Positions 2,776-47,070 of a DNA stretch of 64,000 nt are shown here, piece after piece (positions within the stretch are counted from its first letter, which is position 1; each line of letters begins with the position of its first letter). The stretch lies in NCBI GenBank assembly GCA_005881275.1, contig VBEF01000036.1, positions 42,504 through 106,503 of the forward strand, given 5' to 3'. The notes under the pieces were generated by a model that ran no database searches, had not been told where the DNA came from, and was given only the letters and a program-made list of their open reading frames with translations. Both the position numbers and the translations under genes were made by a program. This DNA comes from Chloroflexota bacterium (GTDB lineage: Bacteria > Chloroflexota > Dormibacteria > Dormibacterales > Dormibacteraceae).

Positions 2776-8588
<5,813 letters not shown>

Positions 8589-16900: not shown

Positions 16901-16922
16901 CAAACCGTCAACTTCGGCGATT

Positions 16923-19973: not shown

Positions 19974-19995
19974 CCGGATAGTCCGGACTATCCGG
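19974..19995. repeat. Perfect 22-bp palindrome after ilvE
   Basis: CCGGATAGTCCGGACTATCCGG is fully self-complementary and lies 17 bases after the ilvE stop; in RNA it would form a stable hairpin followed by GGTTT. It could act as a terminator or protein site. A diverged partial copy occurs at 20023-20038. Confidence 0.6.
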
Positions 19996-20022
19996 GGTTT
20001 GCGTCGGAGTCCGTGTCGCTTC

Positions 20023-20038
20023 GTCCGGACTAACCGGG
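20023..20038. repeat. Partial copy of the palindrome, just upstream of glycerate kinase
   Basis: GTCCGGACTAACCGGG repeats the right part of the 19974 palindrome (GTCCGGACTATCCGGG) with one change. It lies 15 bases before the glycerate-kinase GTG and overlaps the region where its promoter (TAAGGT, 9 nt before GTG) would be. Confidence 0.5.
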
Positions 20039-29973: not shown

Positions 29974-29987
29974 CTGTGAGTGAGCGC

Positions 29988-35552: not shown

Positions 35553-36583
35553 CAGCGAGTCATCGTAAGTTCATCGGGCGATCGGAAGTTGAGGATGCGG
35601 TCTCGCGCGATTCCCGCCCGCCGCGCCATCCACAGCGCCATCGGCACGTAAGCAAACTCCGCGGGCGCGTGCGCGTCGGCGTCGATCGCAAAGTTGCATC
35701 CGTACTCGTAGGCAAGACGCGCCATCTCTGGCGAAAGGTCCATACGCGCCGGGTCGCAGTCGATCTCCAGAGCAACGCCGCGCTTGGCGGCTTCCCGGAA
35801 CACCAGCTCGAAGTCGTACGACGCACCCTCCCGCGAGCCTGGCCGGCGGCCAGTCGGATGGCCGATCACATCGACGTGCGGATGGGAGACCGCGCGCATC
35901 ATGCGTTCGGTCATGGCGGCGGGCTCCTGACGCAGCTTCACGTGCGGCGAGGCGATAACGACGTCAAGGATCTCCAGCACAGCGTCCGGGAGGTCGAGTG
36001 AGCCGTCCTCCAGGATGTCGACCTCGATGCCCTGCAGCAGGGTCATCCCATCGACCTGGCTTTGCACATCGGCCATCTCCCTCGACTGCGCGACCAGCCG
36101 TTCCGCGTTGAGGCCATGCACCACCGTGATGCGGGGCGAGTGGTCGGTGATGCCCAGGTAGCTATAGCCAAGCGCCTGCGCGCCTCGCGCCATCTCGAGC
36201 ATGGTCGCCCGGCCGTCGCTCCAGTTCGTGTGGGAATGGATATCGCCCCGGTAGTCGTCGAAGTCGAGGTCGGACTCGTCCCCTCGCTCAGGCTGCTTCG
36301 ACAGCTCGCGCAGGCGGTTCAGATAACGGCTCGCCCCGGTCTGGATCACATCGGACAGCACCCTGGCGATGCCTTCGCCGACGCCTTCGATCGAGGTCAG
36401 CTTCTCGGCGCGATGGAGCTCGGCCAGGTCGGGCCGCTGAAGCGCGAGCGACCAGGCGGCCGCGGAGAACGCCTTGGCACGAAACCGCTCCTTGGGGTCC
36501 TGGCTGCGCCGAAGCCGAAGCTGGCTGACCCGATCGCCGAGCTGGTCGACTCTCTGCTCGTCGAGCTGGGCGAGGACCCCCAT
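35552..36583 (-). CDS. HhH plus PHP-domain protein (PolX-like without polymerase core)
   Basis: A 343-residue protein. The first 110 residues resemble the N-terminal 8-kDa/HhH region of PolX (FRAKAFSAAAWSLALQRPDL, LTSIEGVGEGIARVL). The rest is a PHP phosphoesterase with metal ligands in DIHSHTNWSDG, GITDHS, GIEVDIL, SPHVKL, GHPTGRR and DADAHAP. The polymerase palm between these parts in PolX is missing. The only plausible start is ATG 36583, which puts its first 63 bases antisense to folE. The likely function is a nucleotide or DNA-end phosphoesterase. Confidence 0.78.
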   Translation of the reverse strand: MGVLAQLDEQRVDQLGDRVSQLRLRRSQDPKERFRAKAFSAAAWSLALQRPDLAELHRAEKLTSIEGVGEGIARVLSDVIQTGASRYLNRLRELSKQPERGDESDLDFDDYRGDIHSHTNWSDGRATMLEMARGAQALGYSYLGITDHSPRITVVHGLNAERLVAQSREMADVQSQVDGMTLLQGIEVDILEDGSLDLPDAVLEILDVVIASPHVKLRQEPAAMTERMMRAVSHPHVDVIGHPTGRRPGSREGASYDFELVFREAAKRGVALEIDCDPARMDLSPEMARLAYEYGCNFAIDADAHAPAEFAYVPMALWMARRAGIARDRILNFRSPDELTMTR

Positions 36584-39543: not shown

Positions 39544-40312
39544 ATGGGCGAATGGACATGGCGAGGGTTCAAAGCCGTGCAGTCGCTGGTCGAACGCTTG
39601 CCCCGGTCGTGGGCATACGCGCTGGCCGTGCTGGCGGCGCGCGTGGCCTGGTTGTTTTCCCCGCTCGCGCGTCCGCGTCTCGAGAGAAACCTCAAGATCG
39701 CCTGCCCGGAGCTGGAGAACGACACGGCCGCGCTGCGCCGACTGTCCTGGCTGAACTTTCAGAATCACGCCAAGGCTTACGCGGACCTGATGCAGCTTCC
39801 GCGGGCGAGGGTCGAGTCGTTGCAGCCCAGGCTGAGGGTGAAAGGCCTGGACTATCTCGAGGAGGCACGCGCCGTCGGCAAGGGCGTGCTGGTCGTCTCC
39901 TGCCACATGGGCTCGTACGAGGTTGTGTCCGCGATCTGGGCCGCGACGCTGTCGCCCGTGAGCTTCTTCGCCGAAGAGCTCGAGCCTCGAGCGTTGTTCG
40001 AGTGGTACCGCGACACGCGGGCGAGGCTCGGGATCAGCGCCCTTCTTCGGCAAGCCGGCGCCGATCCCCTTGGGCCCGGCGGCGATCGCGCTGCGGCTCG
40101 GCACGCCGCTCTTCCCCGTATGCGTTTACCGATTGCCGGACGATACGTACGTGGCCGAAGGAGCACCGCTCGTCTACGCCAGGTCGACCGGCGACGCACG
40201 CGCCGACCAGGTTCGCACAACCCAGGAGCTGCTCCGGCACATCGAGCGCTTTGTCCAGCAGCACCCGGAGCAGTGGCATGTCCCGCACCGGATCTGGGCG
40301 GACACGGAATGA
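39544..40312 (+). pseudogene. Second LpxL-type acyltransferase, internally deleted and frameshifted
   Basis: The first 170 residues are sound (SCHMGSYEVVSAIWAATLSP holds the HX4E motif; EWYRDTRARLGISALLRQAG). Near 40060 the frame breaks and continues +1 as GPAAIALRLGTPLFPVCVYR to a stop at 40312. Compared with the intact copy upstream, about 35-40 residues (the L-x-D-x-D/FFG region) are missing at the break. A shadow frame reads on to 40323. It is either a decaying duplicate of patA or the product of an assembly deletion. It sits 4 bases after patA. Confidence 0.75.
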
Positions 40313-40319
40313 CCGCGCA

Positions 40320-41489
40320 ATGAAGGTCGGGCTTGTTTCGCCGTACGATTTCGCCTCGCCTGGCGGAGTGAATGACCACGTCCGCCACCTCGCCGTCCAG
40401 CTCCAGCAGCTCGGCCACGAAACCCGCATCTTCGCGCCTTCCAGCCGCGCGGACGTCGACTTCGACAGCGCCCGCTTCTACCGGATCGGGACGCCGATCG
40501 CGATTCCGGTCAACGATTCGGTCGCGCGCATCACGCTGAGCTTTCACCTCGCCAACCAGGTGGCGGCGATCGTCGCGGACGAAGGCTTCGATGTCCTTCA
40601 TTTCCATGAGCCGCTGATGCCGGCGCTTCCGATCACGATGCTCCGGATGTCGAACACTGCCAACGTCGGGACTTTTCATGCGTTCGCGCGATCCAATGTC
40701 GGCTATTTCTACGGCCGGCCTCTGCTCCAGCCTTACCTCGAGCACCTGCACCGGGCGATCGCTGTAAGCGAGCCGGCGCGCGCATTTGTGCAGCGCTACT
40801 TCCCTGCCTTCCCGATGCGTGTGATTCCCAACGGCGTAGACGTCAGCGTCTACCGGCCGGGTCTCGCGCCGATCCGCCATCTGCGCGACGAATGCCTGAA
40901 CGTGCTCTTCGTCGGCAGGCTCGAGAAGCGCAAGGGCCTGGGCGACCTTTTGAGGGCTTATCGCGCGATGAGCATGCGGATTCCGCAAACGCGCCTGATC
41001 ATCGTCGGCGATGGGCCGCTCCGGGGCAGGGTCGAGTCGTACGTGGCCAGGCATCGACTCCCGAACGTCGTCGTGGCGGGTTACGTGCCCGACAGCGTGA
41101 AGCCGCGCTACTACAACAGCGCCGACATCTTCTGCGCTCCCGCCACGGGAGCCGAAAGCTTTGGCATCGTGCTGCTTGAAGCCCTGGCGTCCGGTCTCCC
41201 GGTTGTCGCAACCGAGGTGCCGGGCTACATGTCCGTGCTCGAGTCCGGCCGCGACAGCGTCACGGTGCAGCCGAAAAACTGGCGCGAGCTGGCTGCGTCG
41301 CTGGTCATCCTCGCGCGCGACGCCGAGCTGCGGCGAAGGCTTTCCGACTATGCGATTCAGAAGGCCAGACGCTACTCGTGGGAGCTTGTGGCATCTGAGG
41401 TCATCGAGGTCTACCAGGAGGCGCGTAAGGCACTCGCCGCACGACCGGCGGCAACACTGGAGGTGACGGGTGTTCACCACGCGGTTTGA
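40320..41489 (+). CDS. pimA: Phosphatidylinositol mannosyltransferase-like GT4 glycosyltransferase
   Basis: A 389-residue GT-B enzyme. VGLVSPYDFASPGGVNDHVRHL (acceptor loop), IPNGVDVSVYRPG, FVGRLEKRKGLGDLLRA, VGDGPLRGRVE and the donor-binding ESFGIVLLEALASGLPVVATEV are all visible. The closest family is PimA, transferring mannose from GDP-mannose to phosphatidylinositol on the inner membrane face. The context (ino1, patA, CDP-alcohol transferase) supports this. The ORF track's 38790 start is a long shadow across patA; ATG 40320 is the family start. Confidence 0.88.
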   Translation: MKVGLVSPYDFASPGGVNDHVRHLAVQLQQLGHETRIFAPSSRADVDFDSARFYRIGTPIAIPVNDSVARITLSFHLANQVAAIVADEGFDVLHFHEPLMPALPITMLRMSNTANVGTFHAFARSNVGYFYGRPLLQPYLEHLHRAIAVSEPARAFVQRYFPAFPMRVIPNGVDVSVYRPGLAPIRHLRDECLNVLFVGRLEKRKGLGDLLRAYRAMSMRIPQTRLIIVGDGPLRGRVESYVARHRLPNVVVAGYVPDSVKPRYYNSADIFCAPATGAESFGIVLLEALASGLPVVATEVPGYMSVLESGRDSVTVQPKNWRELAASLVILARDAELRRRLSDYAIQKARRYSWELVASEVIEVYQEARKALAARPAATLEVTGVHHAV

Positions 41490-42018
41490 GGCCTGGGTCC
41501 GGCGCCAGGCGGAGGCGCTGGTGTCTGCGCTCGGTCGCAGCCCCATCACTCCCAACCAGGTCACGGTGGTTGGCCTCGGACTTACCTTCCTCGCCGCCGG
41601 CCTTGTGGCTTTTGGCCACCTGCGATGGGCCGGGGTCGTGCTGATCTTCGCCGGCACGTGCGACATCCTCGACGGCGCACTGGCGCGCTCGACCCACGCA
41701 AGCTATTGGCTCGTCCTGGCTACGCTGGCTGCGCTCGCCGGCTCGTTCCTGGTGAGCTACGTGCGCGCCCGCGCGCAGAGCCTCGGTTTTGTTTGCAAAA
41801 CGGGTCTGTTCCAGCGGCCAGAACGTGTTGTCGTGACGGTCGTCGGACTGCTGGTTGGCGGGTACGTGCTTTACGGCGTCGTGTTCCTGCTGGCGATCGT
41901 CACCAACATCACCGCTCTGCAGCGCATCCGAGAGGTGTGGCTCCAGGGCCGAGCCCAGCGCCTCGAGCGTGAGCGCGAGACAAAGGCGCGGCGGGCCGCC
42001 ACCAACCAGGCGCCATGA
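41470..42018 (+). CDS. CDP-alcohol phosphatidyltransferase (PI-phosphate synthase type) lacking part of its active site
   Basis: A 182-residue membrane protein. The first half of the CDP-alcohol motif is present (DILDGALAR), but the following G-x3-D-x3-D that completes the metal site is absent: ARSTHAS runs straight into YWLVLATLAALAG and SYVRARAQSLGF. Relatives of the actinobacterial PgsA1/PIP synthase have about 35 more residues here. The C-terminal half (TGLFQRPERVVVTVVGLLVGG) is normal. The in-frame deletion should inactivate the enzyme, which would otherwise join CDP-diacylglycerol and inositol phosphate. GTG 41470 overlaps the pimA end. Confidence 0.8.
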   Translation: MFTTRFEAWVRRQAEALVSALGRSPITPNQVTVVGLGLTFLAAGLVAFGHLRWAGVVLIFAGTCDILDGALARSTHASYWLVLATLAALAGSFLVSYVRARAQSLGFVCKTGLFQRPERVVVTVVGLLVGGYVLYGVVFLLAIVTNITALQRIREVWLQGRAQRLERERETKARRAATNQAP

Positions 42019-42965
42019 CCGATCCGTTCGAAGCCGTAGCCGGCCACACGCAGGCCCTCGACCAGCTGCGCTCGCAGGTCAGGACCGACCGGCTGGCCCA
42101 CGCGTACCTTTTCGTTGGCGAGTCTGGGCTCGGCAAGGCAATGACCGCGCGTGCGCTGGCGTCCGCACTTCTGCCCGAGGCGCCGCTGACCCGGCACCCC
42201 GACTACTGGGAGGACGACCGGATCAAGCCACTCTCCATCAACGAGATTCGCCTTCTGCCCGACAAGCCGCCTGAGTTTCACGAGCTTTCGCTGCAGGCGT
42301 TCTTGAACCTCAAGCCGGCGATTGGGGGGCGCCGCGTCGTGGTGGTGACGAATGTCGGGCGGGTCCGCGACCAGGACCAGGGCGTACTGCTCAAAACCCT
42401 CGAGGAGCCGCACCCTCATCGCGTCATCGTGTTGACGACGCCGAGCCTCAATCCCTTCGTCGTGCTGCCCACCGTGGTCTCGCGCTGCCAGCGCCTCTTC
42501 TTCCATCCTGTTCCGGCACTCGATATCGAAAAGCTTCTCGTCTCGAACGGCGTCGAGGCCAAGCGATCGAAATTGCTGTCCGAGCTTTCGGGCGGACGTC
42601 CGGGTTGGGCGATGCGGCGCGCGAGGGACGAGGGCGTGATCGAGCTGCACCACGTATGGACCCGCCGCCTGGAAGAGACTTTTGGGTCGCCTGCCGACGT
42701 CCCCTTGCAGCTGGCGGCGCAGCTCGACTCGGAGCAGATGGCCTGGCGGCGCAGCGAAGGGGATGAGGAAGACCCGGCTTTGTTTGCCATCGCGAGCTGG
42801 CAGATCGAGCTTCGTCGTCGCATGCTCGCCACTCGCGGCCGCGAGCAGGGAAGGTGGGCGCGGCTGGTCGAGCTCTCCTATGACACGCTCGGCTACCTCG
42901 AGCAAAACGTGAGCCCGCGACTTGCCCTGGAAACGTTCTTGCTCGAATGCCGAAAAGCGTCGTAA
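42015..42965 (+). CDS. holB: DNA polymerase III delta' subunit
   Basis: A 316-residue clamp-loader AAA+ protein. GHTQALDQLRSQVRTDRLAHAYLFVGESGLGK, GVLLKTLEEP and LPTVVSRCQRLFF (arginine-finger SRC) are diagnostic. The four-cysteine zinc module of many delta' proteins is absent. It overlaps the preceding gene (ATGA) and hisC. In Bacillus it follows tmk and yaaQ; here it is separated from them. Confidence 0.88.
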   Translation: MTDPFEAVAGHTQALDQLRSQVRTDRLAHAYLFVGESGLGKAMTARALASALLPEAPLTRHPDYWEDDRIKPLSINEIRLLPDKPPEFHELSLQAFLNLKPAIGGRRVVVVTNVGRVRDQDQGVLLKTLEEPHPHRVIVLTTPSLNPFVVLPTVVSRCQRLFFHPVPALDIEKLLVSNGVEAKRSKLLSELSGGRPGWAMRRARDEGVIELHHVWTRRLEETFGSPADVPLQLAAQLDSEQMAWRRSEGDEEDPALFAIASWQIELRRRMLATRGREQGRWARLVELSYDTLGYLEQNVSPRLALETFLLECRKAS

Positions 42966-43874
42966 GGAAAGCCCTCGAGGGCTTCCAGCCATACACCCCG
43001 GGTGAACAGCCGCCCGACGGCGAGGGTTGGGTCAAGCTCAACACCAACGAGTCGCCTCTGCCGCCATCGCCGAAAGTCCTGCAGGCGATCAAGGCGGCCA
43101 CCGATGAATCGCTCCGGCTCTATCCGAGCCCGACGGCCGCCCCAGCGCGCCGAGCTATCGCGCGGCATTTTGGCATGGATCCAACCCACGTCACGGTTGG
43201 AAACGGCGGCGACGAGATGATCGAGCTTTGCTTCCGGGCGTTTGCCGGGGCCGGCGACACGGTGGCCTATCCCACCCCGACGTATCCGCTCTTCGACCCC
43301 CTGTGCCGAATCCACGAGGTCAGCCCGTCCCGCCATCCCACCGAGCTGCACTGGGAGCTTCCACCCAGCCTGGGCCCGGATCCCTCGCCGCTCAAGTTCG
43401 TGGTCAATCCGAACTCGCCGACCGGAGCGCTGTTTGACAAGGGTGCCCTTCTCCAAGTCGTATGCGCTGGCCGGACTGCGCGTCGGCTTTGCCTTGGGAG
43501 CACCGGAGCTGATCGAGTCGCTCGACGCGGTCAAAGACTCTTACAACCTCGACCGATTGGCCATCGTGGGCGCGGTCGCGGCGATTGAAGACGAGGCCCA
43601 CCACCGAAAGCTTGTTGAGGCGGTGGTGGAGAATCGCGAGGATCTCACCCGCGACCTGGGGCGGCTCGGGTTCGACGTCGTTCCCTCGGCGACTAACTTC
43701 GTCTTTGCCAAACCGCCCAAGCCGGCGGCCGGCGTAGTTGCGGCGCTGCGTGAGCGCAAGATCCTGGTCCGCCATTACGATCGTGAGCCGATCGCGGGTT
43801 GGATTCGGACCACGATTGGCACACGCGACCAACACGACAAGCTGCTGGCCGCCTTGAAGGAGATTCTCATTTGA
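42947..43874 (+). pseudogene. hisC: Histidinol-phosphate aminotransferase, internally deleted and frameshifted
   Basis: The N-terminal part (VKLNTNESPLPPSPKVLQAI, VGNGGDEMIELCFRAFAGAG, YPTPTYPLFDPLC, VNPNSPTGALFDKG) is typical HisC. At about 43440-43450 the frame changes and resumes as FSKSYALAGLRVGFALG, with the PLP lysine, ending RTTIGTRDQHDKLLAALKE at 43874. About 50-55 residues between the blocks are missing, including the DEAY segment whose Asp binds the PLP ring nitrogen. The gene as given cannot encode an active enzyme. It overlaps holB and the HD gene, so the surrounding operon is otherwise compact. Confidence 0.85.
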
Positions 43875-47024: not shown

Positions 47025-47070
47025 GCAAACAGACCGTCGCAACGGCCATGGCGGTGCAGACCATCTCACG

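Follow-up and report, generated by a model that had tools for sequence, protein, structure and literature searches.

Three short losses in neighbouring genes of a Chloroflexota draft genome as probable local assembly errors

An operon of draft genome G000 (127 contigs, 86% complete) was studied within a 64-kb stretch of DNA, positions 42504-106503 of contig C86, which is referred to here as the window. On the plus strand, the operon contains an acyltransferase gene of the Lip_A_acyltrans type (39544..40312), a pimA-like glycosyltransferase gene (40320..41489), a CDP-alcohol phosphatidyltransferase gene (41470..42018), the start of which overlaps the 3' end of pimA, the holB gene for the delta' subunit of DNA polymerase III (42015..42965), and a hisC-type aminotransferase gene (42947..43874). 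According to the list of open reading frames and the Pfam matches, pimA and holB were intact and full length, as had been stated in the initial annotation of this DNA.

The window was aligned with five congeners, the joins were refined by split alignment, and the operon search covered 40 relatives. Alignments of the operon were interrupted at the identical three places in most congeners, and at these places the relatives had approximately 105-133 extra bases. In the acyltransferase gene, 110 bp were missing at join F (40038/40039), as found by split alignment with the five congeners and with the two closest relatives, G009 and G001. The CDP-alcohol phosphatidyltransferase gene lacked 105 bp at join G (41706/41707), and the hisC-type gene lacked 122 bp at join H (43445/43446). 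The reading frame was shifted at F and H and was kept at G. G009 and G001 were checked at the operon sites where their sequence covers them, and the missing lengths at F, G and H were identical wherever the sites were covered. Clean internal losses in three neighbouring genes, as described in the initial annotation, were thus seen against all of these genomes; the sizes of 100-170 bp given there were wrong, since the measured losses were 105-122 bp.

The full-length congener proteins of the acyltransferase, CDP-alcohol transferase and hisC genes matched PF03279, PF01066 and PF00155. The segment lost at join G comprises 35 codons of a conserved region in the CDP-alcohol transferase, and the shortened protein matched part of the PF01066 profile with 29 bits, compared with 53-57 bits for the congeners. 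Because the draft has three further PF01066 genes, the loss in the CDP-alcohol transferase alone is not proof of an artefact.

Further losses were found in the window and elsewhere in the draft. At join A (14779/14780), 344 bp were missing relative to all five congeners, and at join B (15047/15048), 112 bp were missing within a conserved minus-strand gene of 152 amino acids. Next to folE, a PHP-domain/PolX-like gene on the minus strand (35555-36502) lacked its start because of a loss of 76-83 bp at join E (36494..36507). Join C, at approximately 16912 (16907..16922), is less certain and represents a probable loss of approximately 167 bp relative to three congeners. All five congeners, like the closest relatives, carried the segments that are absent at A, B, E, F, G and H. 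Additionally, 120 kb from elsewhere in the draft were sampled as six stretches of 20 kb, four of which contained clean losses, five in all: 106 bp at C86:9980, 118 bp at C100:12794, 103 bp at C20:15607, 75-78 bp at C50:6717 and 83 bp at C50:11161. Comparison of the stretches L052 and L054 with the congeners revealed no clear loss. The measured sites numbered 11, on four contigs (join C was not among them), and the overall rate, based on 184 kb, was approximately one clean loss per 15 kb in the sampled stretches. An identical search gave nine candidate sites in the window and 0, 0, 2, 2 and 5 in the congeners; one candidate site of G004 was a blunt loss of similar general size, the length of which varied between relatives. 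Losses at the same places were found in none of the five congeners or the closest relatives.

Several other differences were considered and discarded. Site D, near 29975, which by sequence lies in an SMR-type transporter gene, was rejected as a private loss because G004 also lacks this segment, and a difference of approximately 780 bp near 47030 was rejected because the segment is also absent from G003. Both look like ordinary variation in gene content. The differences near positions 7429 and 11950 of the L065 stretch were classed as intergenic or repeat-related and were not counted.

Interspersed repeats were also observed. An intergenic element of approximately 135-180 bp at L065:6225-6404 (contig C100) has long, near-perfect inverted ends (GGAGGTCGACCCCGCC...GGCGGGGTCGACCTCC) and folds strongly; it had no Rfam match. 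Related copies are scattered through the genomes of the congeners, and a single copy is present in the sampled part of the draft. A repeat of approximately 65 bp with CCGGATAGTCCGG-type palindromes occurs in the draft (window positions 19974-20038 and L065:16-80) and in the congeners, and one end of contig C100 falls within it.

The clustering of three losses within 3.4 kb had been considered unexpected in the initial annotation. With uniform placement, the probability of three events within 3.41 kb was 17% for 12 events in 184 kb and 21% for seven events in 64 kb; the three-gene cluster is within chance expectation, at approximately one in five. Given that losses occur throughout the draft and that a cluster of this kind is within chance expectation, no special cause is needed for the clustering.

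The positions of the joins were ambiguous by a mean of 1.59 bases, compared with 1.25 bases for random blunt cuts in the same sequence. Long shared ends are excluded, and homology of a base or two may be present at the joins, the resolution of which is limited because the relatives used are approximately 80% identical. Microhomology or slippage deletion was rejected since the joins share no more bases than random blunt cuts. Ten of the 11 measured lengths fell within 75-122 bp, and the reading frame was ignored, with lengths divisible by three at two of the 11 sites. A search within the alignments for private losses visible as gaps of 10 bp or more gave none in the window, including none of approximately 10-75 bp; real deletions would be expected to include many short ones. 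The missing segments, as read from the relatives, were not GC-rich (mean Z -0.56) and were slightly less stable in folding energy than the background (mean Z +0.27). They consisted of unique conserved coding sequence that was unlike from site to site, with no repeat or mobile unit, and a side-by-side listing judged by eye revealed no common ends among the joins. The losses are thus private to the draft, genome-wide, blunt within the resolution, narrow in size and located in unrelated sequence.

The integrity of the conserved genes in the window was assessed with gene sets from G003 and G010. With the G003 set, 35 of 44 genes were intact. Five of the other nine were broken at the joins described above, two lay at or past the window end, one had a stop upstream of its evident start, and one was a short ORF covered over 81%. 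The extra genes flagged with the G010 set were of the same harmless kinds or reflected differences in gene content. With neither set did the window's conserved genes show a nonsense mutation or a small frameshift.

The 118-bp loss on contig C100 affects infB, which encodes translation initiation factor IF-2, and lies in the part for the GTPase domain. The two pieces of IF-2, corresponding to query residues 1-181 and 218-433, were 98% and 94% identical to a congener protein and lay in different frames. When the whole draft was searched at the protein level, IF-2 was recovered at the C100 site only, and the other matches were weaker GTPase relatives. In bacteria, infB is normally single-copy and essential. 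A second infB copy in the sequence missing from the draft is possible, given its completeness of 86%. Living cells cannot have such a loss in infB. The losses in the operon are of the same class, present in the sequence but almost certainly not in the biology.

Under ordinary gene decay, the deletions in this lineage would be real and independent, and their clustering would reflect an operon that has become dispensable. The private and frameshifting nature of the losses agrees with such decay, but it is very unlikely, since the losses are genome-wide, include the only infB copy found, occupy a narrow length range with no short losses and are not accompanied by nonsense mutations or small indels. 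Moreover, the remainders of the broken genes are approximately 77-82% identical to the congeners at the protein level and carry no other lesion. A still smaller probability may be assigned to a strain mixture, in which the assembler would have followed a minor sub-population with real deletions, or divergent strains would have broken the assembly. Mixed strains are known to break metagenome assemblies (PMC7111523), but true variation between strains would hardly yield clean losses of so narrow a size range at approximately one per 15 kb. Strain divergence that caused only gaps is itself a form of the assembly-error explanation. It is even less probable that the losses, or some of them, truly exist in a fraction of the population, which would survive with full-length essential genes carried on other chromosome copies or by other cells.

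The general idea of an assembly artefact, which was among the causes proposed in the initial annotation, was supported, but not in the two forms suggested there, namely, systematic loss of GC-rich hairpins and removal of a short mobile or repeat unit by the assembler. Foldable repeats of approximately 135-180 bp are indeed interspersed in the genomes of the genus; however, the missing segments are average to low in both GC content and folding stability and are not hairpin-prone. What is missing is ordinary conserved coding sequence, different at each site, and the probability of selective hairpin or repeat loss in sequencing or assembly is negligible. Programmed removal or restoration at the DNA or RNA level, the remaining proposal, would reconcile the split infB with a living cell and is otherwise suggested only by the losses themselves. 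Since the joins follow no common rule of ends, length or frame, the losses spread over the genome and split the only copy of infB found, the congeners lack losses at these sites, and RNA processing is unable to supply sequence missing from DNA, this possibility is just as negligible.

The three losses in the operon are, on the evidence of sequence comparison, very probably errors of local assembly in a genome reconstructed from a metagenome. The assembly would have met a short stretch without usable sequence, of approximately 75-120 bp and occasionally more, and the flanking ends would then have been joined directly without Ns. Such a process would leave blunt losses throughout the draft regardless of reading frame, and three of them would have landed in one operon by chance. 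The living cells probably carry full-length genes.

The relatives retrieved with the pimA query were metagenome-assembled Chloroflexi/Dormibacterota, and almost all of the nearest ones were CF_ drafts whose sample names refer to grassland soil. In the project that produced the CF_ drafts, the source of most of the congeners, each soil sample was assembled with IDBA-UD, and scaffolding errors were corrected later (PMC6784897). Judging from these relatives, the draft studied here was probably made in the same way, in the same type of project and with the same assembler. IDBA-UD is suspected of being especially prone to local assembly errors (PMC7111523). Scaffold joining of the IDBA-UD kind is the likely responsible step. 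A run of 56 Ns at L051:16020-16075 (contig C86) counts against uniform direct joining: because the draft keeps this gap, gaps were not always joined directly, and stripping of all Ns from the scaffolds is not the whole story.

Another relative, G012, was suspected of sharing the deletion at site F because one alignment crossed this site without a gap. This was rejected, since G012 has a separate 103-bp blunt loss at a different place in the same acyltransferase gene (L004, contig C229, near base 994 on the gene-forward strand). The occurrence of such a loss in a second draft also favours the assembly-error explanation. The public name of this scaffold carries the suffix '_e:754'.

No new biology is indicated by these results, and their value lies in the caution that they suggest for drafts of this kind. 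Losses of this sort suffice to make hisC, the CDP-alcohol transferase gene and infB appear broken. When drafts of this type suggest that a gene is absent or a pseudogene, or that an organism is auxotrophic, the call should be backed by reads or by a comparison with congeners. A screen could be based on the features of the losses (blunt, 75-122 bp, frame-blind and free of small indels).

Among known systems, microhomology-mediated or slippage deletion resembles the present case in the precise loss of a short segment but leaves short direct repeats at the ends, and the joins of the draft show no such excess. Pseudogene formation by deletion is similar in its internal losses and frameshifts in recognisable genes; however, the accompanying nonsense mutations and small indels are absent from the conserved genes of the window, short losses are absent from the window, and the only infB copy found is affected. 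The local assembly errors described by Chen et al. 2020 (PMC7111523) differ in that the curated genomes of that work were corrected by read mapping, whereas the joins of the draft were judged here from sequence comparison, and the 75-122 bp size range has no counterpart in the available excerpt of that account. Common to that account and to the reading proposed for the draft are wrong local joins in otherwise correct scaffolds, by which genes are truncated or frameshifted.
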